This document shows positions 19,094 through 33,662 of a stretch of 64,000 bases of DNA, piece after piece. A program made the position numbers and the translations under genes. Location of the stretch: the NCBI RefSeq assembly GCF_000092025.1, contig NC_003062.2:680001-744000 (forward strand), read 5' to 3'. The notes under the pieces are model-generated. The model did not search any database. It had not been told where the DNA came from and worked only from the letters and a program-made list of their open reading frames with translations. This stretch comes from Agrobacterium fabrum str. C58. Its GTDB lineage: Bacteria > Pseudomonadota > Alphaproteobacteria > Rhizobiales > Rhizobiaceae. Numbering within the stretch: position 1 is the first letter of the stretch; each line of letters begins with the position of its first letter.

Positions 19094-19324
19094 TCGGCCA
19101 TGAATATGGTGGGGCAGCTTGAAATGACCGCAGAAACGAGGCCCCCTTCGCCGGGTGGTGTGTGACGTCGACTATGGGTGAGCGTCATCTTCTCCTCACG
19201 ACTGCTTCAAGTGGCGAACCCTGATGTCTCTTTTTCGGAATTTGTCGTTTCATCCCGGCATCTGCCCTGGACGATTCCAATAGAAACATAAGCCTGATCC
19301 AGAAAAACAGGTGGGAGTTTGCAG

Positions 19325-20986
19325 TTGAGTGATTTGGCGTCCTCTGGCGCGGGCGTTCATACGGTGATGCTTGATGCCCTTTGCGACGCGCTTGGCGCGG
19401 CGATCGTCGTTTACGACCGAAACGATCACATTATTTTCGCAAGCCGGAAACTCCTGAGCTTTTTCCCGCTGGAAGAGGCCGTCGCCAGTCCGGGCGCGCG
19501 CCTGCGCGACTATCTGAGCGCGCTTTACGATTGTTATCTGCTGGAGGCGGAAAGTCTCTCCAGCAATGCCCGCCAGCTCGGCCGGGAGGAATGGATCGGC
19601 GAGCGGCTGGCGCTGCACTGGAAGGAACGGTCGGAAAAGACCGAGCGGCTGAAGGGAGAGCGCTTCCTGCGCTTCGTCATGAACCGTCTGCCGTCTGGTC
19701 TCGGCATCAGCGTGGTTGCCGATATTTCCGAACAGAAGAAACGCGAAGAGCAATGGCGCCTCGACCTCGAGCGTGTCCAGCTCATTGAGGACATTCTCGA
19801 CAATCTGCCGTTTCCGGTTCTCGTCAAGGATCGAAACCTCGCTTATGCGGCCGTCAACAAAGCCGCCTGCACCATGGTTGAAACCAGCGCCGAGAGCATT
19901 CTCGGCCGCACCGTTTTTGATCTGCATTCGCGCAAGGTCGCCCGCCGGATCGATGCCGCGGACCGCATGGTCCTGGATAGCGGCACGCCGAGCATCATTC
20001 CTGAAAGAGTGAGACGCCTGAATGGCGAAGAGGTTCTGACGATCACCCGCAAGCAGCGCGTGGGCAGGCCCGGCCGATATTTTCTGGTAACGACGATGGA
20101 GGACGTGACCGCTCTCGCCACCATCGATGCGAACGGCATGCCTGTCATCCCCTCGCTCGAACATGTTCCCTTCGTGGCCTCCACCTATGGCAAGGATGAG
20201 GAAACGGACGGCCGCAGCGGGCTTTTGAAGAGCAAGGCGGTGCTGATCGTCTCCGAAAACACACGTTTTGCGGAGGCCGCCGGCCAGCGGCTGGCTGCCG
20301 GCGGCATGGATCATGCGGCGGTGATGAGCGAGGACGAACAGCGCGCCTTCATCGATGTCGCTGCCTCCGCCGGTGTGGGCATCGACGTGGTCGTCGTCGA
20401 CGCCCAGATGAGCGTCGCATGCCTTGATATTGCCGCCGCCCACGGCCTGCCCGTCGTCACCATCGAGGAAGAGGAGATCGATGCATCGCTCATGCATTAT
20501 CTCGCCGTCGGGCTGAAATCCTCACCGAAGGAGAAAGCCGAGGACGAGGACTGGGAGATCATGACCGACGACCTGCCGGAAATGCTCAGAACCGGCAGCG
20601 TCTGCGATATCCTTCTCGTTGAGGACAACAGGGTCAACCAGATCGTCTTTTCGCAAATCCTCGAGGGGCTGGGACTTTCCTGGCGGCTCGCCACCTCCGG
20701 CGAGGAGGCCTTGCGCCTTTTTGTCGAACAGTCGCCATCCGTCGTCCTTCTCGATACGACGCTCGGGGATATCGACGGTTTCGAGGTCGCCCAACGCATG
20801 CGCGATCTCGCCGGCGACAAACATATTCCCATCGTCGGTGTCATCACCCATGCCTTCGAGGGCGATCTCGACAAATGCCTGGCGTCCGGCATGGACGACA
20901 TGCTGCTGAAACCCGTAAGCCCTGACATGGTCGAGGCGGTTTTCCTGCGGCTTATCGGCAAGGATGTCCTGCGGCTGCAGGCCTGA
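19325..20986 (+). CDS. PAS-domain response regulator with pseudo-receiver, no kinase domain
   Basis: I place the start at TTG 19325 (553 aa), because GGGAG at 19313-19317 sits 7 nt before it. The N-terminal 270 residues look like two PAS-type sensory modules with an EQKKREEQWRLDLERVQ coiled linker between. Residues about 303-400 resemble a receiver fold (VLIVSENTR, then VVVVDAQMS) but lack a normal acidic pocket. A true receiver follows at about 427-548, with EDN, phospho-acceptor Asp477 (LLDTT), Thr508 and Lys529. No histidine kinase or output domain is present, so it is likely an adaptor or phosphate sink. An EAL protein gene lies 86 bp downstream. Confidence 0.75.
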   Translation: MSDLASSGAGVHTVMLDALCDALGAAIVVYDRNDHIIFASRKLLSFFPLEEAVASPGARLRDYLSALYDCYLLEAESLSSNARQLGREEWIGERLALHWKERSEKTERLKGERFLRFVMNRLPSGLGISVVADISEQKKREEQWRLDLERVQLIEDILDNLPFPVLVKDRNLAYAAVNKAACTMVETSAESILGRTVFDLHSRKVARRIDAADRMVLDSGTPSIIPERVRRLNGEEVLTITRKQRVGRPGRYFLVTTMEDVTALATIDANGMPVIPSLEHVPFVASTYGKDEETDGRSGLLKSKAVLIVSENTRFAEAAGQRLAAGGMDHAAVMSEDEQRAFIDVAASAGVGIDVVVVDAQMSVACLDIAAAHGLPVVTIEEEEIDASLMHYLAVGLKSSPKEKAEDEDWEIMTDDLPEMLRTGSVCDILLVEDNRVNQIVFSQILEGLGLSWRLATSGEEALRLFVEQSPSVVLLDTTLGDIDGFEVAQRMRDLAGDKHIPIVGVITHAFEGDLDKCLASGMDDMLLKPVSPDMVEAVFLRLIGKDVLRLQA

Positions 20987-21072
20987 AATTTCCATTGTCG
21001 GGAGGCTATGGCTTTTTTAATACTTGCCCTGCATTGTGAGCGCGGTCGACACAGGATTCACGAGATGCAGGA

Positions 21073-22425
21073 ATGAAACGGGCAGAGCCGCAATCGTTGC
21101 AGGTCAGCCAGAACGAGCTGCAGGCGATGGCCTACAGTGATCCGCTGACGGGGCTCGGCAACCGCTACCGTCTGCGGGACAAGATTCGCATGCTCGCCAG
21201 TGAACGATCCAGCGATCCGGCACCCTTTACGGTCGGCATTGCCAATATCGACGGTTTCAAACCCATCAACGATCTCTTCGGCGTCCAGGCGGGTGACGAA
21301 ATCCTGTGCCAGGTGGCGCACCGGCTGAAGGCCTGCATTCCCGATGGCGCCATCGTGACGCGCCATGACGGCGACGAATTCGCCTTCGTGCTGCCGCTGA
21401 TTTTCGAGCGCATCGGCGCGGAGCGCATTGGCAACATGATCAAGGACGTGCTGTCGGCCCCTTACGATCTCGGCGATCGCAATGTCCGCCTGTCCTCCTC
21501 TTTCGGTTTCGCCATTTATCCCTTCGCCGGTGATGAATACGAGGATCTGCTGAAAAGCGCCGAGACCGCGCTTTACCGCTCGAAGCGTCGCGGCCGCGGC
21601 CAGATCACCGTCTATTCGCGTGAGATCGCGCAGGAAATGAAGCGCGCCACGCAGCTGGAACAGGCGCTCAGAAACGCGATCATCACCGATGCGATCGACG
21701 TGCATTTCCAGCCGATCGTTCGGCTGGAGGAGGCGAAGGTCATCGGTTTCGAGGCGCTCGCCCGCTGGAACGATCCCGATCTCGGCTTCGTGTCGCCCGC
21801 AGTCTTCGTGCCGCTAGCCGAAGAGCGCGGTTTCATCGATGCGCTGTCGGAAGCCCTGCTGCGCAAAGCGGCGGAAGCGGCCCTGTTCTGGCCGCGTGAG
21901 CTGTTCCTGTCCTTCAACCTGTCTTCCGCGCAATTGATGGACCCGAGCACATCGGACAATATTCTCTCCATTCTCTCGCGTGTCGGCCTCGATCCGCACC
22001 GGCTGGAGCTGGAAATCACCGAAACGGCGGTCATGACGTCAGCCGATACCGCGCAGCGCATCATCAGCGAATTGCAGAGTGCCGGCGTTCGCATCTCGCT
22101 CGACGATTTCGGCACCGGCCAGTCGAGCCTCGGCCGCCTGCGTGACTTCACCTTCGACAAGGTGAAGATCGACCGCGCCTTCGTCTCGCGCATCAGCAGC
22201 GACCGCCCCTCCGAACACATCATCAAGGCCATCGTCGCCATGTGCGAGGGGCTTGATCTCGAGGTTGTGGCCGAGGGGATCGAGGAGCGGGTGGAAGAAG
22301 AAAAACTGCGTGCGCTTGGCTGCGCCATGGGGCAGGGCTATTTCTACGGCCGCCCCGTCGACGCTGCGGCAACCCAGCGTTACCTGCACGAGAATTATCG
22401 CGAGATATTGTCGGATATTTCCTGA
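21073..22425 (+). CDS. Degenerate-GGDEF/EAL protein, probable c-di-GMP phosphodiesterase
   Basis: The 450-aa cytoplasmic protein has a GGDEF domain (about 15-180) and an EAL domain (about 195-440). The GGDEF signature reads DGDEF at residues 99-103, with the first Gly replaced, and there is no RxxD inhibitory site five residues upstream; cyclase activity is doubtful. The EAL domain looks complete: EAL at 227-229 in GFEALARW, FNLS, LEITET, DDFGTG, KIDR and AEGIE. Hydrolysis of c-di-GMP is therefore likely, with GGDEF as a possible GTP sensor. It has no membrane segment. It lies just after the PAS/receiver gene, suggesting joint signalling. Confidence 0.87.
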   Translation: MKRAEPQSLQVSQNELQAMAYSDPLTGLGNRYRLRDKIRMLASERSSDPAPFTVGIANIDGFKPINDLFGVQAGDEILCQVAHRLKACIPDGAIVTRHDGDEFAFVLPLIFERIGAERIGNMIKDVLSAPYDLGDRNVRLSSSFGFAIYPFAGDEYEDLLKSAETALYRSKRRGRGQITVYSREIAQEMKRATQLEQALRNAIITDAIDVHFQPIVRLEEAKVIGFEALARWNDPDLGFVSPAVFVPLAEERGFIDALSEALLRKAAEAALFWPRELFLSFNLSSAQLMDPSTSDNILSILSRVGLDPHRLELEITETAVMTSADTAQRIISELQSAGVRISLDDFGTGQSSLGRLRDFTFDKVKIDRAFVSRISSDRPSEHIIKAIVAMCEGLDLEVVAEGIEERVEEEKLRALGCAMGQGYFYGRPVDAAATQRYLHENYREILSDIS

Positions 22426-22701: not shown

Positions 22702-23646
22702 TCAGAGCCTGTAAAGCGGCTCGAACCTGCCCTTCACCTCGATACCGAGTTCGAATGTCAGACCATGCTGCGGATTTGCGGTAATGGCGTCGTCATCGAG
22801 ATGTTCGCGGGCGGAGGTGACGAGCAGGCGCGAAGCGTCGGGGCCGATGAAGGCCGGGCAGGTCGTCTGTTTGCCGGGCACCTCGTATCGGGCGATGTGA
22901 TTGCCATCGGTATCGTAACGATCAACCGCACCTTCACCCCAACGGGCATTCCAGATATGCCCTTCGGCATCGCAGACCGATCCGTCCATACCGCCCTTGA
23001 TACCGGTGGAATCGATGAAGACTTCGGCCTTGCCGGTGGGAAGACCGGTCCGCGCATCGAGCGGCACCCGCATCAGCCTGTTCACCTTGGTATCGACGAA
23101 ATAACCCGTTGTGCCGTCGGGGGAGAAGCAGATCGAATTCGGAATGCTGATATCCGCGAAAAGCTTCGTCACCTTGCCTTTGGCGACATGATAGATGCTG
23201 CCGGCGCCGGTTTCGGCCTTGCGACCCATGGTGCCGATCCACAGCGCGCCGGATGGGTGCATGCGCCCGTCATTGGAACGGTTGCCAGGCAGGTCGCTTT
23301 CCAGCTCCGCATGCAATGTCAGCACGCCGGTCGCGGTGTCGCGCAGGAAAAGCCCGTCATCGGAGGCGATCAGCTGCTTGCTGTCGCTGATCTTGGCGAG
23401 CGCGCTGCCCATGAAGGGCAGGGCATGTACGGTCTTGCGGCCGGAGGCGAGATGCAGCTCATGCAGTTCGCGCTCGAGAATATTGAACCACCAGGCGGTG
23501 CCGCTGGCGGGGTCGAAGGTCGGGCCTTCGCCAAGCAGCATCGGCGTTTCGTCCAGAACACGTCCTGCAAAGGGAAAAACGGTCGCCAAGCTCTTATCCT
23601 CCGATGGCTGCATCATAGGCCGCGAGTGTGACAGTGGCGCGTTCAC
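22702..23646 (-). CDS. SMP-30/gluconolactonase family sugar lactonase
   Basis: This six-bladed propeller enzyme opens aldonolactones; in this operon galactonolactone is the natural candidate. Landmarks are LGEGPTFD near the N terminus (metal ligand Glu), SNDGRMHPSGALWIGTM (the NDG metal-site segment) and PNSICFSPDG. The GTG at 23646 gives 314 aa and has GGAGG 3 nt upstream. ATG 23616 or 23613 (304 or 303 aa) would give only about 20 bp of overlap with dgoA and is equally plausible. It is the last gene of the minus-strand cassette. Confidence 0.85.
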   Translation of the reverse strand: MNAPLSHSRPMMQPSEDKSLATVFPFAGRVLDETPMLLGEGPTFDPASGTAWWFNILERELHELHLASGRKTVHALPFMGSALAKISDSKQLIASDDGLFLRDTATGVLTLHAELESDLPGNRSNDGRMHPSGALWIGTMGRKAETGAGSIYHVAKGKVTKLFADISIPNSICFSPDGTTGYFVDTKVNRLMRVPLDARTGLPTGKAEVFIDSTGIKGGMDGSVCDAEGHIWNARWGEGAVDRYDTDGNHIARYEVPGKQTTCPAFIGPDASRLLVTSAREHLDDDAITANPQHGLTFELGIEVKGRFEPLYRL

Positions 23647-24223
23647 GCACCTCCGCCGCCGTCATGCCGGGCTTGTAAAGGCTGGTCCCGAGACCGAAAG
23701 CCCGAATGCCGGCCGAGGTATAGTCGGAAAAATTCTTGTCCGAGACACCGCCGACGGCGGCGATGATCAGCTCCTTCGGCAGGATCGTCCTGATGGCATT
23801 GATGCCGGAAGGGCCGATGATGCTGGCGGGGAAAAACTTCAGCCCCGTCGCTCCGGCCTTTGCGGCCACCAGCGCTTCGGTGGGGGTGAGAACACCCGGC
23901 ATCGTTACCATGCCTTTTTCACGCGCGGCGGTAATGACCTCGGCATCGGCATTGGGGCTCACCATCAGCTTGCCGCCTGCCGCATCCAGCGATGCCACGT
24001 CTTCCACGCTGAGCACGGTGCCGGCGCCAATCAGGCAATCGGCCGGGGCCATCCTGGCGGCGATCTCGATCGAGCGGAACGGATCGGGCGAGTTGAGCGG
24101 AATTTCGATGGCGCGGAAGCCGGTCTCGATCAGCGCGCCGACGACGCCTTCGGTTTCCTCGGGTTTCAGACCGCGCAGAATGGCGATCAGCGGATATTTG
24201 ATGGAAGGGAAGGGAATACGCAT
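23594..24223 (-). CDS. dgoA: 2-dehydro-3-deoxy-6-phosphogalactonate aldolase
   Basis: DgoA splits 2-keto-3-deoxy-6-phosphogalactonate into pyruvate and glyceraldehyde 3-phosphate. The 209-aa class I aldolase has ILRGLKPEE, the catalytic-site Glu in RAIEIPLNSPDP, GAGTVLS, and the Schiff-base Lys in TGLKFFPA. These fit the KDPG/KDPGal aldolase family, and the DgoA identity rests on the adjacent dgoK. It starts 15 bp after dgoK and overlaps the start of the lactonase gene. Confidence 0.9.
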   Translation of the reverse strand: MRIPFPSIKYPLIAILRGLKPEETEGVVGALIETGFRAIEIPLNSPDPFRSIEIAARMAPADCLIGAGTVLSVEDVASLDAAGGKLMVSPNADAEVITAAREKGMVTMPGVLTPTEALVAAKAGATGLKFFPASIIGPSGINAIRTILPKELIIAAVGGVSDKNFSDYTSAGIRAFGLGTSLYKPGMTAAEVRERATVTLAAYDAAIGG

Positions 24224-24238
24224 GGTCGATCTTTCTTC

Positions 24239-25153
24239 CTATGGCCAGATGGCATTTGCAGCGGCCAGCAATCCGCGCCGCACGGCGTCGTCGGCGTCGA
24301 TGACCGTATAGTGGATATCAAGGGCGGTGAAGGCACCTTCATAAAGCGCGCCGAGTGCGCCGGAGCCGATGAGCACCACCGGCGTCTCGCGCTTTGCCTG
24401 CGAATGAGCGCCGGCGATTTCCAGCCCGATCATGATGCCGGAAAGCCTCGCCTTGGCGTCGGTCGCGGCAAGCCCGTGCAGCAATTGGCCGGATCGCAGG
24501 GTGAAAAGGCGATTGGTCGCAAGCTCGGGATGGGCGTAGATATCGCGCACGGCTGCCGTGAAAGCCTCGTGCTCGCCGGTGAAGGCTTCGGCCTCCGCCA
24601 CCGCGTGTGACAGAATGGTCTGTTTGGAGATCGCCTCAAAGAGTTCGCCGGTCATGAAGGTGGCGAAGCGTGTCACGCCGCCATCCTTGACGGTCACCCA
24701 TTTGGAATGGGTGCCGGGCATGCAGACGAGTTTCTCTCCACTATCTCCCGAAGACAGAGCGCCGAGCAATTGCGTTTCTTCGCCGCGCATCACGTCGGGC
24801 GCGCCTTTGTCCCGCTGTGCGAGACCCGGCAGGATGCGCACATCCCGTGTCTGACCCGGCACGCGGACAGCACCTTCCAGAACCGCCGAAAGCGAGGCCG
24901 GCACGTCGATATAACCCGCCTCGACCCAGCCCTGCCGTGCGCCCGCCATGCCGCAGACGAGAACCGGCAAATCCGCGGGTGCGCCGATGGCGTCGAGATG
25001 CGCCTGCAATACGTCGGCAAAACCGGTCCGCATGGCGGTGGTCATGCCTTCCGCGCTGCGCCGTTCGGCAAGCACCGCGCCCGATCGGCTGAGAAGCCAG
25101 AGCCGGAAACTGGTCGTGCCCCAGTCAACGGCGATGAAAGCGGGTTCGGACAT
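24239..25153 (-). CDS. dgoK: 2-dehydro-3-deoxygalactonokinase
   Basis: DgoK phosphorylates 2-keto-3-deoxygalactonate with ATP. I use ATG 25153 (304 aa), whose ATG shares its A with the TAA stop of the upstream SDR gene (TAATG), so translation is coupled. The start reads FIAVDWGTTSFRLWLL, the phosphate-1 motif of this actin-fold kinase family. CGMAGARQGW, MPGTHSKWV and a C-terminal VVLIGSGALG segment also fit. A longer open frame upstream (to 25270) lies inside the SDR gene and is rejected. Confidence 0.9.
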   Translation of the reverse strand: MSEPAFIAVDWGTTSFRLWLLSRSGAVLAERRSAEGMTTAMRTGFADVLQAHLDAIGAPADLPVLVCGMAGARQGWVEAGYIDVPASLSAVLEGAVRVPGQTRDVRILPGLAQRDKGAPDVMRGEETQLLGALSSGDSGEKLVCMPGTHSKWVTVKDGGVTRFATFMTGELFEAISKQTILSHAVAEAEAFTGEHEAFTAAVRDIYAHPELATNRLFTLRSGQLLHGLAATDAKARLSGIMIGLEIAGAHSQAKRETPVVLIGSGALGALYEGAFTALDIHYTVIDADDAVRRGLLAAANAIWP

Positions 25154-25935
25154 TATAACAGGCCTCCGTCTACGATAATGGATTGCGCCGTGATGGCGCT
25201 CGATGCCGATGATGCGAGAAACAGGCACGGCCCGGAAAGATCGGCAGCGACGAGCGTGCGCTTCAGGCACTGCCGCGCCGTGGTGGCCGTAATGCCCTCA
25301 TCCGTCAGCCACAGTTCCTTCTGCCGCTCCGTCACGATCATGCCCGGCAGGAGCGTGTTGACGCGGATATTTTCCGGCCCCAGCCTGCCGGCAAGGCTCT
25401 TGGTGAGACCGATAATGCCGGCTTTCGCCGCTGCATAGGAAGGCAACTCGCCCATGTTCAGCAAAAACGAGATAGACGAAAAATTGACGATCGAGGCATC
25501 CTTCGCCTGTCGCAGATGGGGAAGGGCAGCCTGAACCGTGAAGAACATCTGCTTGAGATTGACCGCCTGGTTGGCGTCCCAATAGGCCTCTGTGACGCTG
25601 TCGATGTCGTGACGGTCGTCCCAGGCGGCATTGTTGACCAGCACCTTGATGCCGCCGGTGGCGGAGGCGGCCATATCCACCGTACGCTTGATCGCGTCGA
25701 TATCACTGAGGTCGGCCCTGAAATAATGGACCGGGTGAGGCACCGTCGCCGCAAGCCGCTCGACAAGCGCTATGCTCGGCTGTTCGGCGATGTCGATGAA
25801 CGAAACCTTCGCCCCCTGCATCGCGAAGGCTTCGACCAGCGATGCCCCGATGCCCGAACCGCCGCCGGTAACGAGCACGCCCGCATCCTTGAGGTCTGGA
25901 AATTGGGCTTGCATCATTGGCGTCATCTCGTTCAT
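25153..25935 (-). CDS. SDR-family dehydrogenase, probable sugar dehydrogenase
   Basis: The 260-aa short-chain dehydrogenase has the NAD(P) motif TGGGSGIG (about residues 23-30), NNAA, the catalytic Ser in FSSISF and YAAAK with catalytic Tyr and Lys. An Asp after the second strand (SFIDIAEQ) favours NAD+. As first gene of a dgoK-dgoA-lactonase cassette it most likely oxidises D-galactose (or a related aldose) to the lactone, opening a De Ley-Doudoroff route. This is inferred from context. ATG 25935 is used; in-frame ATGs at 25926 and 25917 are possible. The divergent IclR gene and palindrome lie upstream. Confidence 0.85.
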   Translation of the reverse strand: MNEMTPMMQAQFPDLKDAGVLVTGGGSGIGASLVEAFAMQGAKVSFIDIAEQPSIALVERLAATVPHPVHYFRADLSDIDAIKRTVDMAASATGGIKVLVNNAAWDDRHDIDSVTEAYWDANQAVNLKQMFFTVQAALPHLRQAKDASIVNFSSISFLLNMGELPSYAAAKAGIIGLTKSLAGRLGPENIRVNTLLPGMIVTERQKELWLTDEGITATTARQCLKRTLVAADLSGPCLFLASSASSAITAQSIIVDGGLL

Positions 25936-25948
25936 GAAAGGCTTGATT

Positions 25949-25965
25949 GTTCCATTATTTGGAAC
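25949..25965. promoter_or_regulatory. Perfect inverted repeat, likely IclR operator
   Basis: GTTCCA-TTATT-TGGAAC is a perfect 6+5+6 palindrome in the divergent gap, 14 nt before the SDR start and about 70 nt before the preferred IclR start. IclR-type regulators of sugar-acid genes (KdgR-like) use TGGAAC/GTTCCA half-sites, so this is a good operator candidate for the divergently encoded regulator. Confidence 0.65.
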
Positions 25966-26035
25966 TAAATTTTACTAAGTGGAATTATTCTCTTGGCGTC
26001 TCGATGATGTCAAGACCGATGACGGTGGATGGCGC

Positions 26036-26875
26036 ATGCCTGATGATAAAAAAGCCAATGGCGGAAAGCCCGATGCGGTTCCGCCCTCACACCAGAAAAC
26101 CGAAAACGCCACCGGCACGCTCGGCAAGGTCGTCTCGCTGCTGGAACTGATCGCCCTTGCCGAAAAGCCGATGCGTTTTACCGATGTCGTCGAGGCAAGC
26201 GGTCAGCCTCGCGGCACGGTTCACCGCCAGCTCGCGCATCTGGTTGCCGAGGGCCTGGTGGATCATGCCGCCGATCAGACCTATGCGGTGGGGCTGAGGC
26301 TCCTGCAACTGGCGGCGAAGGCCTGGAGCGGCAATGATCTGCGCAACGTCGCAGCACCTCATCTTTCGGCCTTGCAGGAAGCGACGCAGGAATCCGTGCA
26401 TCTCGCCGTTCTGAACGGCGGGCAGGTCACCTATCTCGACAAGATGGAGGGTCGCCATACATTGCGCATGCATTCGCAGGTCGGCAAAACCTCGCCGGCC
26501 TATTGCACGGGGGTGGGCAAGGCGGCGCTGTCGCTGCTGCCCGTCGATGAGCTGGCGGAACTTGCCGCAGGAATGGAGTTTCACCGTTTCACGGAGGCGA
26601 CGCTGATAACGCCGGAAGCCCTGATGGCCGATGTCGCCGCCATCTGCGACAATGGTTACGGTTTCGATCTTCAGGAACATGAAATCGGAATTCATTGCGT
26701 CGCCGCACCGGTCCGGGCGCGGGGCCGCAATTTTGTGGCGGCGATCTCGGTCACCGGTCCCGCCTACCGGGTGGATGCGGAACAGCTGCGCAACTGGGCG
26801 CCGCTGGTGCGCGAAACGGCCGATAAAATCTCTGCGGAACTCGCCTGCAGATTATCCCCGGTTGCGGATGATTGA
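26036..26875 (+). CDS. IclR-family transcriptional regulator of the galactonate cassette
   Basis: The protein (279 aa from ATG 26036; a GTG at 25979 would add 19 residues but lacks a ribosome-binding site) has an N-terminal winged helix-turn-helix: GKVVSLLELIAL, then PRGTVHRQLAHLVAEGLV. An IclR effector domain follows, with QESVHLAVLNGGQVTYLDKMEG and FDLQEHEIGIHCVAAPV. It is divergent from the SDR-dgoK-dgoA-lactonase operon and probably represses it until an intermediate such as keto-deoxygalactonate binds. The effector identity is inferred from context. Confidence 0.88.
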   Translation: MPDDKKANGGKPDAVPPSHQKTENATGTLGKVVSLLELIALAEKPMRFTDVVEASGQPRGTVHRQLAHLVAEGLVDHAADQTYAVGLRLLQLAAKAWSGNDLRNVAAPHLSALQEATQESVHLAVLNGGQVTYLDKMEGRHTLRMHSQVGKTSPAYCTGVGKAALSLLPVDELAELAAGMEFHRFTEATLITPEALMADVAAICDNGYGFDLQEHEIGIHCVAAPVRARGRNFVAAISVTGPAYRVDAEQLRNWAPLVRETADKISAELACRLSPVADD

Positions 26876-27085
26876 GAGAAAAACGGCGCGCCCCGTCGGG
26901 TTTCTCCGCCAGAATTGGCCGTGAGGACACTCATACATGTGTGTTAGTAATTATTTTCGACTATTCGGAATTAAACTTTCAACTTTTGTTTGCATGAATC
27001 GATTTGCTGAGTAACATCCCCCACAATTCCGGGCAGGGGCGGGGCTTTTGCGGCGGCATTTTCTCATTCTCGAAGAACAGCTTTG

Positions 27086-27826
27086 ATGCAGAAAACAGAA
27101 ACGGCCGCCGTTCAGTCGATTGGTGTGGATTGCGTTCGCGAGATCGCCGGTCTCAACACGCAATTCGATATATTCCGCTTCCTGAAACGGCTGACGGAGG
27201 TCTGGGAGTTTCGCGCCTTCATGGTGCTCGACCTGTCGTCGGAACTGGCGAGCGAATTGTCGCAATATACTGTTATCACCAGCTGGCCGGCCGAGCTTTT
27301 GCAGCGTTATGATGAAGAGGGCATGCTGCAGAACAGCCGGGTGATGGCGCAGCTGAAAAAATCGACCATACCCTTCTCCGTCTCCATGGATTTTCTGGTC
27401 AACGGCGAGGAGCATATCGCTAATAAAACGGTGATAGGTCTGTTCGAGCGCTTCGAGATGGTGAATTCGGTCTGGTTTCCCGTTCACGACGTCACCATGA
27501 GGCGCGGCGCCATATCCTTTTCAGGCAATAAGGCGGTTCTGCCAACCACCCGGCTTGCCGAACTTTTGTATATTTCCTGCCATGTCTTTGCCCGGCTATC
27601 TGAAATCCGCCGCCTGGACCTCAGGGTTCCCGAAACACTGAGCGAGCGGGAGATCGACTGTCTGAACTGGACCGCCGCTGGCAAGACGAGCGCTGAAATC
27701 GCTGAGATCATGATGCTCTCGGAACATACCATCAATCACTACCTGAACCGCGCGACCAAAAAACTCGACACGGTCAACCGCACCCAGGCTGTCGCGAAAG
27801 CGCTGCGGGTCGGCCTGATAAAATAG
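27086..27826 (+). CDS. LuxR-type regulator, solo, AHL pocket residues altered
   Basis: The 246-aa protein has an autoinducer-domain-like N-terminal part and a C-terminal LuxR helix-turn-helix (LSEREIDCLNWTAAGKTSAEIAEIM..., about 182-240). In the N-terminal domain the SWPAELLQRY segment is kept (Trp67, Tyr75). The nearly invariant Asp-Pro pair that follows is Asn83-Ser84, so acyl-homoserine-lactone binding is doubtful. No luxI-type synthase gene is in the window. ATG 27086 is used. A solute-binding-protein gene begins 78 bp downstream, an association that suggests a shared ligand-response role. Confidence 0.82.
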   Translation: MQKTETAAVQSIGVDCVREIAGLNTQFDIFRFLKRLTEVWEFRAFMVLDLSSELASELSQYTVITSWPAELLQRYDEEGMLQNSRVMAQLKKSTIPFSVSMDFLVNGEEHIANKTVIGLFERFEMVNSVWFPVHDVTMRRGAISFSGNKAVLPTTRLAELLYISCHVFARLSEIRRLDLRVPETLSEREIDCLNWTAAGKTSAEIAEIMMLSEHTINHYLNRATKKLDTVNRTQAVAKALRVGLIK

Positions 27827-27904
27827 CGAAATCATAATTTTATCATTGTGATAAACCGCTACCTGGGCGATCCTCCTTTCGAATCACCGGAAAGGAGAAA
27901 TCGT

Positions 27905-29128
27905 TTGCCGGAACGGCATAAGGTTAAAGCGGGATTTTCTCCGACTATCGATTGCGCCGTGTTGATAGCCGCTGCCGAAAAAGGTTTTGCTGCCGATGAA
28001 GGCATAGAACTGGAACTTTTCAGAGAGCAGTCTGCGCGCGCCGTTCTCGCCGCACTTGGCGGGGATGACATTCACATAGGGCATCTGCCCGCACCGGTTC
28101 CGGTCGGCTCCGCTGTCGGCCTCGATGATCTGCCGGCCGATATTGTCGGCGTTTTCACGCTTTCCCTCGGCGGATCGGCAACGGCGGTTTCCCATGGATT
28201 TTACGATGAGCTTTACCGCGAAGGGATGAAGCTGCCCGATCCGGCTGCCTTCGGGCGGGCCATGGCCCGCGTCTGCGCCGCGCGGCGGGCGGCGGGCAAA
28301 AATCCGCCGGTCTTTGCTGTGGAGGATATTGTCTCCACGCCCTTTTATACCTTGCGTTATCTGCTCGGAAGCTGCGGCGTCCTGCTCGGCCGGGACATGG
28401 AAATCATCGAGGCCCTGCCGAAAGCAATGCCCGCACTTCTGGAAAGCGGCAAAGTCGATGCACTCTGTACCGCCGAACCGGCCGGCAGCGCCGTGGTGCT
28501 CGGCGGCGCCGGGCGGATCGTCACCACGGGCGCCCTGATCTGGCATAATGCGCCGGAAAAGATACTGGCCGTGAAAAAAGGCTGGGCGGAGGAAAATGCC
28601 ACTTTGCTGGAAGGATTGCTGCGGGCGCTCTACCGTGCCGGCGAATGGTGTGCGAACGACGCCAATATCGAGGAGCTGGCCGGCATTCTCGCCGCCCCTC
28701 AATACATCGATGAAAACGGTGAATTCCTGCTGCCGGCGCTGACCGGCTATATTTCCACTTCGCAACGGGACATGCAGCGTTTTCAGGAATTCTTCGTGAC
28801 GAGCGCCAAGGCGGCCAATTTTCCATGGCAGAGCCAGGCGCTATGGTTCTTCAGCCAGATGCTGCGCTGGGGCGAAGTTCCCGCTGAGCGACGGCTGGAA
28901 CCAACGATGGCGGAGGCGGCGCGCAATGCCTATCGGCCGGATATTTTCCGCAAGGCCATGAAGCCGCTTTTCGTACCCGTGCCGGGCGCCAATCTGAAGC
29001 TTGAAGGCACGCTGAAGGAACCTGTCCATGTCGGCGCCTCGCGCACCGGCCTCGTCCTTGGCCCCGACTGTTTTTTCGACGGCCGTGTCTTCGACCCGGA
29101 AACGCTCGAGATGGACGACGAAATCTGA
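27905..29128 (+). CDS. Leaderless NrtA/NasS-like substrate-binding protein
   Basis: The start is TTG 27905 (407 aa), because AAAGGAG at 27891-27897 sits exactly 7 nt before it; the GTG at 27848 has no such signal. The sequence resembles the nitrate/bicarbonate binding-protein fold (NrtA/CmpA/NasF): FSPTIDCAVLIAAAEKGFAADEGIEL-type opening, then a hinge region and EPAGSAVV. There is no signal peptide or lipobox at either start and no permease or ATPase gene nearby. A cytosolic sensor like NasS is more likely than a transporter subunit. It directly follows the LuxR gene. The ligand is unknown. Confidence 0.75.
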   Translation: MPERHKVKAGFSPTIDCAVLIAAAEKGFAADEGIELELFREQSARAVLAALGGDDIHIGHLPAPVPVGSAVGLDDLPADIVGVFTLSLGGSATAVSHGFYDELYREGMKLPDPAAFGRAMARVCAARRAAGKNPPVFAVEDIVSTPFYTLRYLLGSCGVLLGRDMEIIEALPKAMPALLESGKVDALCTAEPAGSAVVLGGAGRIVTTGALIWHNAPEKILAVKKGWAEENATLLEGLLRALYRAGEWCANDANIEELAGILAAPQYIDENGEFLLPALTGYISTSQRDMQRFQEFFVTSAKAANFPWQSQALWFFSQMLRWGEVPAERRLEPTMAEAARNAYRPDIFRKAMKPLFVPVPGANLKLEGTLKEPVHVGASRTGLVLGPDCFFDGRVFDPETLEMDDEI

Positions 29129-29244
29129 AACCGCAGCGTTAAATCGTCGCGAATACCTGCCGCCTGCGCTTTGGCATTGGCGAAGCGCTCCGGCTTGGCT
29201 ATGGATGCACGCAATACCCTGGAATGATGTAGCGGAGGATGAAC

Positions 29245-30411
29245 ATGGCAGAGGTCAGCAAGAACCAGGTCGAAAAGGCGCTGGAAACGGTGATCTATCC
29301 CGGCAGCGGCAAGAACATCGTCGCGCTCGGCATGGTCTCGGAAATCTTCATCGCCGACGCGAAGGCCTATTTCTCCATCACCGTTCCGGCCGACAAGGCC
29401 TCTGAAATGGAACCTCTGCGGCTTGCAGCCGAACGGGCGGCCAAAAGCGTGGAAGGCATTGCCGGCGCGGTCGTTGCGCTGACGGCCGATCGCAAACCCG
29501 GCCAGCAGCAGCCCGCCCCCGCAGGTCCCACCCCCGCGCGTCCCGCCGCAGCAACCGGCCGGCCCGCCGCCGCGCCCGGTCGGCCGACACCGCAGCCGGG
29601 CTCGTCCAAGGTGGGCGTGCCGGGCGTCCGCGCCATCATCGCCGTGGCGTCGGGCAAGGGTGGCGTCGGCAAATCAACGACGGCCGTCAATCTGGCGCTT
29701 GGTCTGCAGGCGCTCGGCCTCAAGGTCGGCATGCTCGATGCCGATATTTACGGCCCCTCGCTGCCGCGGCTCTTGAAAATCTCCGGCCGTCCGAAGCAGC
29801 AGGAAGATCGCATCATCCTTCCCATGGAGAATTACGGACTGAAGGTCATGTCCATGGGCTTTCTGGTGGATGAGGAAGCTGCGATGATCTGGCGCGGGCC
29901 GATGGTGCAGTCTGCCCTGATGCAGATGTTGCGCGAGGTGGCCTGGGGTGAACTCGATGTGCTGGTGCTCGACATGCCGCCCGGCACGGGCGATGCCCAG
30001 CTTACCATCGCCCAGCAGGTGCCGCTTGCCGGTGCGGTCATCGTCTCCACGCCGCAGGACCTGGCGCTGCTCGATGCGCGCAAGGGTATCACCATGTTCC
30101 GGAAGGTGGAGGTGCCGCTGCTCGGCGTCATCGAGAATATGAGCTATTTCATCGCACCGGATACTGGTGCGCGCTACGATATTTTCGGCCATGGCGGCGC
30201 CAAGGCGGAAGCGGAGAGGATCGGCGTGCCGTTTCTCGGCGAAGTGCCGCTCACCATCTCCATCCGTGAAATGTCGGATGCCGGAACCCCGGTCGTCGTC
30301 GCCGAGCCGGATGGCCCGCAGGCCGCGATCTACCGCGAGATCGCGGAAAAAGTCTGGGCGCGGATGGGTGCTGACGAGAGAAAAGCCGCGCCGAAGATCG
30401 TTTTCGAATAG
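29245..30411 (+). CDS. mrp: Mrp/ApbC (NBP35-type) Fe-S cluster carrier ATPase
   Basis: Mrp proteins load and deliver Fe-S clusters. ATG 29245 (388 aa) is preferred because GGAGG (29234-29238) lies 6 nt before it. Residues about 5-80 form a MIP18/DUF59 domain. A Pro/Ala-rich linker runs to about 125. The P-loop domain follows, with SGKGGVGKSTT (deviant Walker A), DADIYGPSLP and DMPPGTGD. The usual CxxC cluster-bridging pair near ENMS is absent here (YFIAPDTGARYDIFG), a variant I recall from other alphaproteobacterial homologues. Confidence 0.9.
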   Translation: MAEVSKNQVEKALETVIYPGSGKNIVALGMVSEIFIADAKAYFSITVPADKASEMEPLRLAAERAAKSVEGIAGAVVALTADRKPGQQQPAPAGPTPARPAAATGRPAAAPGRPTPQPGSSKVGVPGVRAIIAVASGKGGVGKSTTAVNLALGLQALGLKVGMLDADIYGPSLPRLLKISGRPKQQEDRIILPMENYGLKVMSMGFLVDEEAAMIWRGPMVQSALMQMLREVAWGELDVLVLDMPPGTGDAQLTIAQQVPLAGAVIVSTPQDLALLDARKGITMFRKVEVPLLGVIENMSYFIAPDTGARYDIFGHGGAKAEAERIGVPFLGEVPLTISIREMSDAGTPVVVAEPDGPQAAIYREIAEKVWARMGADERKAAPKIVFE

Positions 30412-30749
30412 AGCGGTATGCCCCCGGTGCAAATGGATGTGCGTCGGCGGGCTCCGAATAGTCCTTTTAAAACAGAAGATTAATCGCCAGTATCGGGCAT
30501 GTTTTCGGGGTTTGAACTCCAGAGATGCTTCGCCTGCAATGCTGTCGAGAAAAAATATTGCTTGATTGCATCCCGCTTTGGGCGCATACGCCTGCGCCGT
30601 TTGGCTCTTGGTCCGTCGGGCTGGTGGGATAGTCTGTCCTGCGCGTTCCGGAGTACTCTCGAAGTGTCGTCCAGAGGTTTGCCGACCGCAAACAGGATAT
30701 GTTAAGCAGCATTGCGGCTGATGCCTGCGATGTGGAGCGGAGAAACGGA
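30412..30749. other. Intergenic region without a recognised gene
   Basis: About 340 bp between mrp and corA. Open frames here are short and have no recognisable family or good ribosome-binding site. It should contain the corA-kup promoter. I see no riboswitch-like or strong terminator structure. Confidence 0.5.
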
Positions 30750-31727
30750 TTGATAAAAGCCTATCGCGCCAATTGCGAGGCGATCAGCCTGTCGACAGAC
30801 GACGGCTCCGGACCGATTCCCGACGACATCGTCTGGATCGATCTCGTCAATCCCGACAGGGCGGAAGAGCAGCGTGTGGAAAAGCTGCTGGGCGTTGAAC
30901 TGCCGACGCGCGAAGACCTCAAGGATATCGAGCCTTCCAGCCGCCTCTATATGGAAGACGGCAATGTCTTCATGACCGCTTCTCTGGTGTGGAAGGCGGA
31001 TTCGGACGATCCGCGCCTGACCGATATCGCCTTCATTCTGATCGGCAAGCGTCTGGTGACGATCCGTTATGCCGAGCCGAAATCATTCCATCTTTTCATC
31101 GCCGCCATCACCCGCGCGCCGCACGAGATGCGCAGCGGCACGGCGCTGCTGTTGAAACTGCTGGAAACCATCGTCGACCGGACCGCGGAAATTCTCGAAA
31201 ATTCAGTTACGGGCATCGACAATCTCGCCGCCGACATTCTCGGCAGTCAGGCGCGCAGCAAGCGCAAGGCACCCCGTTATCTCGAAGATCGCCTGACCAA
31301 CATCGCCGCCTATCACCGGCTGATCTCGAAGCTTCGCGTCAGCCTCGCATCGCTGGCGCGGCTGCAGACCTTCCTGTCCACCAGCGACCAAGCGCGCGAG
31401 GACAAGGGGGCAAAGGAACAGGGTAAGTCTGTCGGGCGCGATATACAATCGCTGAACGAACATGCCTCCTTCGTTTCCGGCAATCTGACATTTCTGCTCG
31501 ACGCCTCTCTCGGCATCATCAACATCGAGCAGAACGGCATCATCAAGATTTTCTCGATCGCTTCGGTGGTGTTTTTGCCGCCAACGTTGGTGGCTTCGGT
31601 TTATGGAATGAACTTTCAGCTCATGCCGGAGTTGAACTGGACATTTGGTTATCCCCTTGCGCTGGTCGTCATGCTGATGTCCGCCATCATCCCGTTTCTC
31701 TTTTTCCGCTGGAAGGGCTGGCTCTGA
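30750..31727 (+). CDS. corA: CorA-family magnesium/divalent cation transporter
   Basis: CorA pentamers carry Mg2+ (or Co2+, Ni2+) across the inner membrane. I use TTG 30750 (325 aa), with GGAG at 30739-30742 placed 7 nt before; the ATG at 30699 would add 17 residues with a worse signal. A long soluble helical domain fills residues 1-255. Two C-terminal membrane segments are separated by the diagnostic YGMNF motif, and the end is short and basic (FRWKGWL). kup begins 15 bp downstream, so Mg2+ and K+ uptake genes form one unit. Confidence 0.88.
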   Translation: MIKAYRANCEAISLSTDDGSGPIPDDIVWIDLVNPDRAEEQRVEKLLGVELPTREDLKDIEPSSRLYMEDGNVFMTASLVWKADSDDPRLTDIAFILIGKRLVTIRYAEPKSFHLFIAAITRAPHEMRSGTALLLKLLETIVDRTAEILENSVTGIDNLAADILGSQARSKRKAPRYLEDRLTNIAAYHRLISKLRVSLASLARLQTFLSTSDQAREDKGAKEQGKSVGRDIQSLNEHASFVSGNLTFLLDASLGIINIEQNGIIKIFSIASVVFLPPTLVASVYGMNFQLMPELNWTFGYPLALVVMLMSAIIPFLFFRWKGWL

Positions 31728-31735
31728 AGAGCCAG
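31718..31735. promoter_or_regulatory. Perfect palindrome over the corA stop, at the kup ribosome-binding site
   Basis: CTGGCTCT-GA-AGAGCCAG is an 18-nt near-perfect stem across the corA TGA. The AGGA that should serve kup (ATG 31743) begins at the 3' edge of the stem. The hairpin could couple kup translation to ribosomes finishing corA. The structure is visible; the role is inference. Confidence 0.45.
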
Positions 31736-31742
31736 GATCATC

Positions 31743-33662
31743 ATGTCTCAAATCGCAGACAAGGACGTTGCCGAGAAACCGGATGCCGATGACTCGCACA
31801 AGAACAAGGGGCTTTATGCTGCCATCCTTGGTTCCATCGGGGTCGTTTACGGTGATATCGGCACCAGTCCGCTTTATGCCTTTCGCGAAGCCCTGAAGCC
31901 GATCGCCTATGATGGCGTGACGCGGGAGGAGGTCATTGGTCTCACATCGCTGATGATCTGGTCGCTGACGATCATCGTGACCTTCAAATATATCACGCTT
32001 CTGCTGCGTGCCGACAATGACGGCGAAGGCGGCACGCTGTCGCTTCTGGCGCTGCTTATGAAGACGGCGGGCACGCATCGCAGCGTTCTCATCGTGCTCG
32101 GTCTCATCGGCGCCGCCCTGTTCCTGGGTGACGCGATGATCACGCCGGCGCTATCGGTGCTTTCGGCGGTGGAAGGTCTGAAGCTCGTCACGCCTGCCAT
32201 GGACGACTTCATCATTCCGATATCCGTCTGCATCCTCATCGGCCTCTTCGCAATCCAGTCGCATGGCACCGGCACGGTGGCGAAGTTCTTCGGCCCGATC
32301 ACGGCGGTCTGGTTTCTCGTGATGGGCGGGGCCGGCCTTATTCATATAGCCGATGATTTCGGCATTCTTTTTGCCTTCAATCCCTGGCATGCGGTGGAGT
32401 TTCTGGCCAATGAAGGCTTTTACGGCGTCGTCGTGCTCGGTGCGGTCTTCCTGACGATAACAGGTGCTGAAGCACTTTATGCAGACCTTGGCCATTTCGG
32501 CCGCCGCCCCATCCAGTGGGCGTGGTTCTGTCTGGTTTTCCCGGCTTTGACGCTGAATTATCTCGGGCAGGGCGCGCTGGTCCTGAAAGACCCGGCAGCC
32601 ATGTCCAATCCGTTCTACCTGATGTTCCCGCAATGGGCGATCCTGCCGGCCGTCATTCTGGCGACCGCCGCTACCATCATCGCCAGCCAGGCGGTGATAA
32701 CAGGCGCGTTTTCGCTGGTTCGTCAGGCGATCCATCTTGGCTACCTGCCGCGTATGGAAATCCTCTTCACCTCGGAAACCAATACCGGGCAGATCTATCT
32801 GCCGGCCGTCAATACCATCCTTTTGTTCGGCGTCGTGGCACTGGTGCTCACCTTCAAAAGTTCGGATGCGCTGGCCACCGCCTACGGTATCTCGGTTACC
32901 GGCGCGATGGTCGTCACCAGCCTGATGTTCTTCGAATTCGTGCGCAAACGCTGGCAATGGTCGATTTGGCTGGCGCTTGCTGTGCTGACCCCGCTTCTGC
33001 TGCTGGAGCTGATCTTCCTTGGCGCGAACCTGCTCAAGATCCACGATGGTGGTTACGTGCCGGTGCTGCTGGCGATCGCCTTCACCGTCATCATGACCAC
33101 TTGGCAGCGCGGCTCGAGAATCCTTTTCGCCAAGACCCGCCGCGGGGATGTGCCGCTGAAGGCCTTCGTCGCTTCGGTGGAAAAAGAAAGCGCCCATGCG
33201 CCGGTGCGTGTGCCCGGCACCGCGATTTTCCTCACCGGCGATCCGGAGGCAGCACCGGCGGCATTGTTGCACAATCTCAAGCATAACCATGTCCTGCACG
33301 ACAAGAACGTCATCCTGACGATCCGCACCGAGGACCAGCCGCGCGTTCGTCCGGAGGACAGATACACGCTGACGAAACTCAGCGATCGTTTTGCCGTGGT
33401 CGAGCTGCATTTCGGCTTCATGGAAACCCAGAACGTTACACAGGCGCTGGGCTATCTGAGACGCACCGGCTACAAGTTCGACATCATGTCGACCTCGTTT
33501 TACCTCGGCCGCCGCAAGCTGGTGCCGGATCCGAAATCCGGCATGCCGGGCTGGCAGAACCGTCTGTTCATCGCGCTTGCCGAAACCGCTGCCGATCCCT
33601 CCGACTATTTCCGCCTGCCTGCAAACCGTGTGGTGGAACTCGGCTCTCACGTCGTCGTCTGA
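31743..33662 (+). CDS. kup: Low-affinity potassium uptake protein Kup (TrkD)
   Basis: Kup is an H+-coupled K+ importer of the KUP/HAK/KT family. The 639-aa length fits. The family signature [16 protein letters not shown] is at about residues 36-51. Twelve hydrophobic segments fill residues about 25-460, including [18 protein letters not shown]. The cytoplasmic C-terminal domain of about 170 residues has [12 protein letters not shown] and ends [17 protein letters not shown]. It is cotranscribed with corA by spacing. The RIME-like element at 33.7 kb follows. Confidence 0.94.

Follow-up and report, generated by a model that had tools for sequence, protein, structure and literature searches.

Downstream of a LuxR-type regulator gene, an open reading frame encodes a protein related to the nitrate-binding proteins NrtA and NasS. 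What does such a protein sense in this position, and to which partner does it report? The window analyzed here is a stretch of 64,000 nucleotides from contig C1 of a four-contig genome of 5.67 Mb (G000). Genes called in region 25153-33662 encode an SDR protein, an IclR-family regulator, the LuxR-type regulator, the sensor, Mrp, CorA and Kup; the names other than IclR, LuxR and sensor come from sequence reading. The IclR gene (25979..26875, forward strand) forms the left flank of the conserved locus. The right flank is a gene for an Mrp-like ATPase (29239..30411, forward strand), named from sequence reading and from published context. Mrp is a P-loop ATPase of a non-ABC kind. Among the genes called between 25153 and 33662, none for an ABC permease or an ABC ATPase was seen, which bears out the initial annotation on the lack of transporter genes near the sensor.

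The sensor gene (27905..29128, forward strand) encodes 407 residues. As first proposed, it starts with a TTG at 27905, and the Shine-Dalgarno sequence AAAGGAG (27891..27897, forward strand) is placed 7 nt ahead of it. An AGGAG-type site precedes the TTG in most of the 38 loci read in the genus. Judged by eye, the N-terminus shows neither a signal peptide nor a lipobox. Upstream starts, checked in the same manner, give no signal peptide either; the in-frame GTG at 27848 would add 19 residues without any hydrophobic leader. The leaderless character initially ascribed to the protein is therefore retained. The sequence matches Pfam NMT1_2 (E-value 4.8e-46) and no PHROGs family. Its predicted model (pLDDT 92.6) is closest in fold to NrtA (2g29, E-value 2.1e-28). 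The best sequence matches in the PDB are the regulatory domains of CmpC/NrtC (9uai, 9uak, 8wm7), followed by NrtA. These C-terminal domains are NrtA-like, as is the sensor, and located on the cytosolic side, but they belong to the ATPase subunit of an ABC transporter whereas the sensor is free-standing. A search for homologs scored 8000 candidates and found 152, of which 120 were listed; 69 of these 120 were aligned with the window sensor in the structure alignment. Public records name such homologs CmpA/NrtA family or NitT/TauT transport proteins.

The neighboring gene (27086..27826, forward strand; ATG at 27086, stop at 27826) encodes a protein with the domain architecture of AHL-type LuxR receptors, an autoinducer-binding domain (Autoind_bind, 3.7e-18) and a GerE helix-turn-helix domain (6.8e-16), with a predicted model at pLDDT 83.4. 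The contact residues of AHL-type receptors were mapped in a register that we take to be that of TraR. Out of W57, Y61, D70, P71 and W85, only Y61 survives, as Tyr75; the four others are replaced by Leu71, Ser84, Arg85 and Val99, respectively. Asn83-Ser84, initially read as the counterpart of TraR Asp70-Pro71, is off by one residue, the ungapped register giving Ser84-Arg85. D70S is the change given for this LuxR group in PMC4338825. Of 691 LuxR homologs found, 41 among the 120 matches listed were aligned with the window LuxR. The contact residues are already changed in relatives that do not have the sensor.

The origin of the sensor was traced with trees. NasS of the Paracoccus NasS-NasT system (PMC3795266) and the sensor are of the same sequence family and both are leaderless. 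In the trees, the genus sensors that have no NasT beside them, hereafter orphans, form one fully supported clade nested within NasS and grouped with NasS from full operons. The stem branch of this clade is long (0.93 to 1.1). Tree 1 contained 24 of 38 orphans, all 40 NasS and 6 of 23 NrtA; tree 2 had 51 rows, with 14 of the 38 orphans, and tree 3 had 50 rows, with 12 of them. The orphans differ from NasS of NasS-NasT in lying behind luxR, in their nitrate contacts (see below) and in the absence of a neighboring NasT, which is encoded beside 40 of 40 canonical NasS and 0 of 38 genus orphans.

Five relatives (G061, G363, G465, G434 and G459) carry nasT-nasS-nrt-nirBD-nasA behind the same luxR. 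The series in G061 runs mutL, PAS, GGDEF/EAL, luxR, nasT, nasS, nrtA, nrtB, nrtCD, nirB, nirD and nasA, with mrp some 5 kb further on and kup. In G363 it is luxR-nasT-nasS-nrtA-nrtB-nrtD-nirB-nirD-nasA-mrp-corA-kup. G465 has the layout of G363, and G434 has the nrtCD type. Beyond the operon, mrp was found in all four genomes read that far (G061, G363, G465 and G434), G459 having been read only into nasA; the annotation of the full-operon genomes leaves out stretches of roughly 2 to 5 kb that separate nasA from mrp. A transporter operon elsewhere had initially been held to speak against a sensor. In relatives, this site does hold such an operon, accompanied by nasT. Upstream in the window, PAS-type and GGDEF/EAL genes (19319..22425, forward strand; domain names from sequence reading, not from HMMs) are neighbors found again on the left side of the luxR-nas operon, in G061, G363, G465 and G459. 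A sugar-acid type block is located at 22702-26875, with SMP30/regucalcin-like, KDPG aldolase-like, DgoK-like kinase, SDR and IclR genes (all but IclR named by sequence reading); it also adjoins luxR in relatives.

On its contig C2, the window genome carries a canonical cluster, nasT-nasS-nrtA-nrtB-nrtD-nirB-nasA. The window sensor and the C2 NasS share 35% identity; thus the sensor is not a recent copy of the C2 protein. NrtA, NrtD and NirB encoded on C2 are 84%, 88% and 90% identical, respectively, to those of G363. More generally, C2 NrtA, NrtB, NrtD and NirB show 76-90% identity to the products of the genes behind luxR-nasT-nasS in G363, G465 and G459. From these identities, it looks as if the structural nrt/nirB genes had passed from one replicon to another and come to stand beside a different nasT-nasS. 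A second ANTAR protein (L042) is encoded on contig C3 (524559-524693).

luxR and the sensor gene are adjacent in all 39 genomes of the window's genus. The description of a cytosolic NrtA/NasS-like protein without its own transporter, beside a LuxR-type regulator with non-AHL contacts, is thereby right for the whole set. In 38 of the 39, the aligned starts leave a gap of 76-104 nt after luxR and mrp comes next. In the remaining genome (G207), the sensor lies broken across the ends of two contigs, its first part adjoining luxR by coordinates. Among the named records found to carry the sensor, the closest are strains of Agrobacterium or Rhizobium (13 loci). Of 199 genomes drawn across the family, 105 had some NasS/NrtA-type match and 75 a LuxR match at 1e-25. 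With strict cut-offs, draws of 394 genomes gave luxR and a nearby sensor outside the genus only in G061 and G363; these cut-offs missed G323, which was found later with P0074. In eight relatives that were fetched, luxR precedes mrp with no nas gene between them. Co-conservation of the pair, which the initial annotation proposed to check across Rhizobiales, thus holds within the genus (39/39) but not across the order. In G071 and G103, two adjacent luxR genes precede mrp, as in a published tandem arrangement.

A second genus (g107) also contains the arrangement. It includes G480, the sensor of which shows 100% identity to a protein carrying the name Agrobacterium vitis. Among its 63 genomes, 22 have a NasS with at least 56% identity to P0074. 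The contexts of all 22 matches at or above this level were read: four have nasT and nrt genes and 18 show luxR-sensor-mrp without nasT. On a tree of Mrp and Kup, which omits G459 because its flanking genes are missing and in which G434 is 38% filled, the orphan label requires four changes. This locus tree favors several changes, gain and loss being indistinguishable on it. An AU test did not reject one shared origin for the Agrobacterium and A. vitis-type orphans (p 0.456).

The nitrate pocket distinguishes the two kinds of proteins. NrtA contacts nitrate through Trp102, Gln155, His196, Gly240 and Lys269 (PMC13204499), and NasS is stated to retain all nitrate-coordinating residues (PMC3795266). 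NrtA of the window genome was aligned to 2g29 and, counting by hand, the contacts were placed at sensor residues 44, 91, 146, 190 and 219, which are Ala44, Ser91, Pro146, Ala190 and the conserved Lys219. The 40 NasS encoded beside nasT, including that of G061, have Trp (40), Asn (40), His (40), Gly (37) and Lys (40) at these sites. By contrast, the 38 genus orphans have lost Trp102, Gln/Asn155 and His196 in every case; Gly240 is found in 6 and Lys269 in 37, the exception having Arg. In the second genus, the four NasT-bearing proteins are all W/N/H/G/K, and the 18 NasT-less ones are W/G/Q/A/K (12), W/G/Q/S/K (1), W/N/C/A/K (4) or W/N/A/G/K (1). In total, 44 of 44 NasS with an adjoining nasT keep Trp102, Gln/Asn155 and His196, and 56 of 56 NasT-less sensors have lost His196 while 55 of 56 keep Lys269. 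Absence of NasT and loss of His196 therefore coincide without exception in these sets. Among the 120 listed homologs, the orphan-like public proteins P0030, P0036 and P0042 have Arg or Ala in place of Lys269, and mixed pocket states occur, such as W/S/H/G/K in P0050. Cys or Ala stands in place of His196 in P0060, P0062 and P0081, all of them NasS-like; P0060 comes from a MAG that bears the name Shinella.

Because Trp102, Gln/Asn155 and His196 are gone in all 38 genus proteins, the nitrate-like ligand of the initial annotation has to be abandoned, and a plain nitrate sensor is rejected. Within Agrobacterium, the entropy at the four sites that lost their contact residue equals or exceeds the median, which does not point to one fixed new ligand. 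The protein is nevertheless maintained. Across 22 close genomes out of the 38, dN/dS is 0.083 for the sensor (231 pairs), 0.082 for LuxR and 0.057 for Mrp, and no in-frame stop was found in the genus sensor matches. The Agrobacterium sensor is under purifying selection. Taken with the lost contacts, this argues that it is neither a decaying gene nor a plain nitrate sensor. By homology, ancestry, absence of NasT, lost contacts, purifying selection and genus-wide adjacency to luxR, the sensor is an orphan NasS.

We propose the following course of events. The ancestral site would have held an assimilatory nitrate operon, nasT-nasS-nrt-nirBD-nasA, with luxR before it and mrp behind. The genes for NasT, for the transporter and for the reductases would then have been lost here, another nas operon being present on the second replicon. 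nasS would have been retained and brought to 76-104 nt behind luxR, with its pocket altered. The cytosolic sensor may now close on a different ligand, probably still anionic since Lys269 is kept and the bulky contacts are replaced by small residues. Contact between proteins would relay the ligand state, the most likely recipient being the LuxR-type regulator whose gene immediately precedes. The simplest account of the locus is that a nas operon following luxR was stripped of everything but nasS. This history, taken together with a new ligand and with signaling probably to LuxR, has in our view an even chance of being right. Gene position and retention make the adjoining LuxR our best single guess for the partner. 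A bolder version is put forward tentatively, as possible rather than probable: the NasS-derived sensor would have exchanged its ANTAR partner for LuxR and its nitrate site for a new one, probably more than once in Rhizobiaceae, and would be the input of AvhR in the A. vitis group.

The sensor could also be an independent cytosolic binder of a small molecule acting on a third partner, its place behind luxR being merely historical. This is a minority possibility, though one with arguments of its own. The old operon order explains the position. No residue of LuxR tracks the presence of the sensor across genomes, one gappy N-terminal column excepted; the eight relatives with a LuxR and no sensor show that the basic function of LuxR is independent of the sensor. 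Direct co-evolution of the two proteins was sought with Mrp and IclR as controls. Sensor and LuxR distances correlate (r 0.970; partial correlation 0.844 given Mrp), but in the close group the sensor correlates with IclR (0.944) at least as well as with LuxR (0.913). The co-variation is unspecific and is therefore not counted as support for coupling. On the other hand, it would be odd for nasT in front and nrt-nasA behind to be removed, and nasS kept by luxR, apparently more than once.

Signaling to LuxR has also to be weighed against an action in trans, which we consider unlikely. A nitrate-blind NasS might bind the NasT encoded on the second replicon and, as a constitutive anti-activator, set a floor on nas expression. 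The descent from NasS and the canonical nasT-nasS pair on C2 of the window genome fit this idea. The Paracoccus NasS-NasT complex dissociates on nitrate or nitrite (PMC3795266), so that a ligand-blind form could hold NasT permanently. However, two genomes retain the orphan without such company: G226, a 91% complete assembly, gave neither an ANTAR match nor a further NasS/NrtA match, and G431 (99% complete; the search covered NasS/NrtA only) gave no further NasS/NrtA match at E 1e-30. Low identity to the resident NasS also argues against this model, and luxR, not nasT, adjoins every orphan locus read. A functionless remnant of a decaying nas operon would agree with a sole survivor on a long stem, but is rejected on its dN/dS, intact reading frames and presence throughout the genus, and is highly improbable. 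Just as improbable is a substrate-binding protein of an ABC importer, as public names and the fold closest to NrtA would have it, rejected on the missing leader and neighboring ABC genes as well as on NasS ancestry.

Published gene orders connect the locus with known LuxR solos. In A. vitis, the context of AvhR is given as calcium-binding protein (C)-avhR-nrt, with nrt tabulated as a nucleotide-binding ABC transporter (PMC4338825). G480 has the same order, with SMP30 on the other strand, luxR and the sensor. We take this SMP30 to be the calcium-binding protein of the AvhR context. Among the changes listed for AvhR, D70S is found in 20 of 20 LuxRs read in the second genus, W57F in 8 of 20 (Leu in G480) and W85R in none of the 20, which have Phe or Tyr. 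The LuxR of the A. vitis luxR-sensor locus is probably AvhR. The title of Hao et al. 2005 links AvhR to grape necrosis and a tobacco response. Its ligand is listed as not yet determined (PMC10134790). Under the bolder proposal, the NasS-derived sensor would provide the signal input so far missing for AvhR in the A. vitis group.

For LuxR solo group 6, which occurs in Rhizobium, Agrobacterium and others, the context is given as fabG2(C)-iclR-luxR-[luxR]-mrp (PMC4338825). This is the locus of the window, with the difference that the sensor is absent from the group 6 context and from that of SMc00878/SMc00877 of S. meliloti; it is from published context that we infer the location of SMc00878 at this locus. 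SMc00878 seems to affect denitrification (PMC5977203), and expression of nap, nor and nos is cited as lowered in its mutant, a finding of others (PMC12445080). The sensor offers a tangible candidate for the input of one group of LuxR solos, to which AvhR probably belongs and, judging from published context, SMc00878 as well. The initial annotation knew of no described system with this pairing. A literature search, with sources available in part, found nothing describing a LuxR-NasS pairing, but the avhR-nrt gene order is in print (PMC4338825). Reading the sensor proteins as NasS would correct the transporter-type names that sources give to them. Across related species, a single chromosomal site displays three states: luxR with the complete operon, luxR with the sensor alone, and luxR by itself. 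A nitrate sensor is caught there in a change of function. This suggests that a descendant of a nitrate sensor was repurposed for a new sensing job beside a LuxR-type switch.

The gap between luxR and the sensor was also inspected. An Rfam scan of 26800-29400 gave no known RNA element to E 1. Over the same region, promoter predictions (1 versus 0.9 expected) and terminator predictions (6 versus 3.7 expected, sd 1.9) were counted and given no weight. The palindrome TTTATCATTGTGATAAA (27839..27855) starts 12 nt past the luxR stop and overlaps the in-frame GTG at 27848. It is a possible operator. It is exact in 21 of 22 close genomes and has one mismatch in the 22nd, against 4-8 mismatches in 16 divergent ones, so that its conservation is limited to the close group of the genus. 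Allowing at most one mismatch, TTTATCANNGTGATAAA occurs as a single copy in the whole genome, at 27839..27855.
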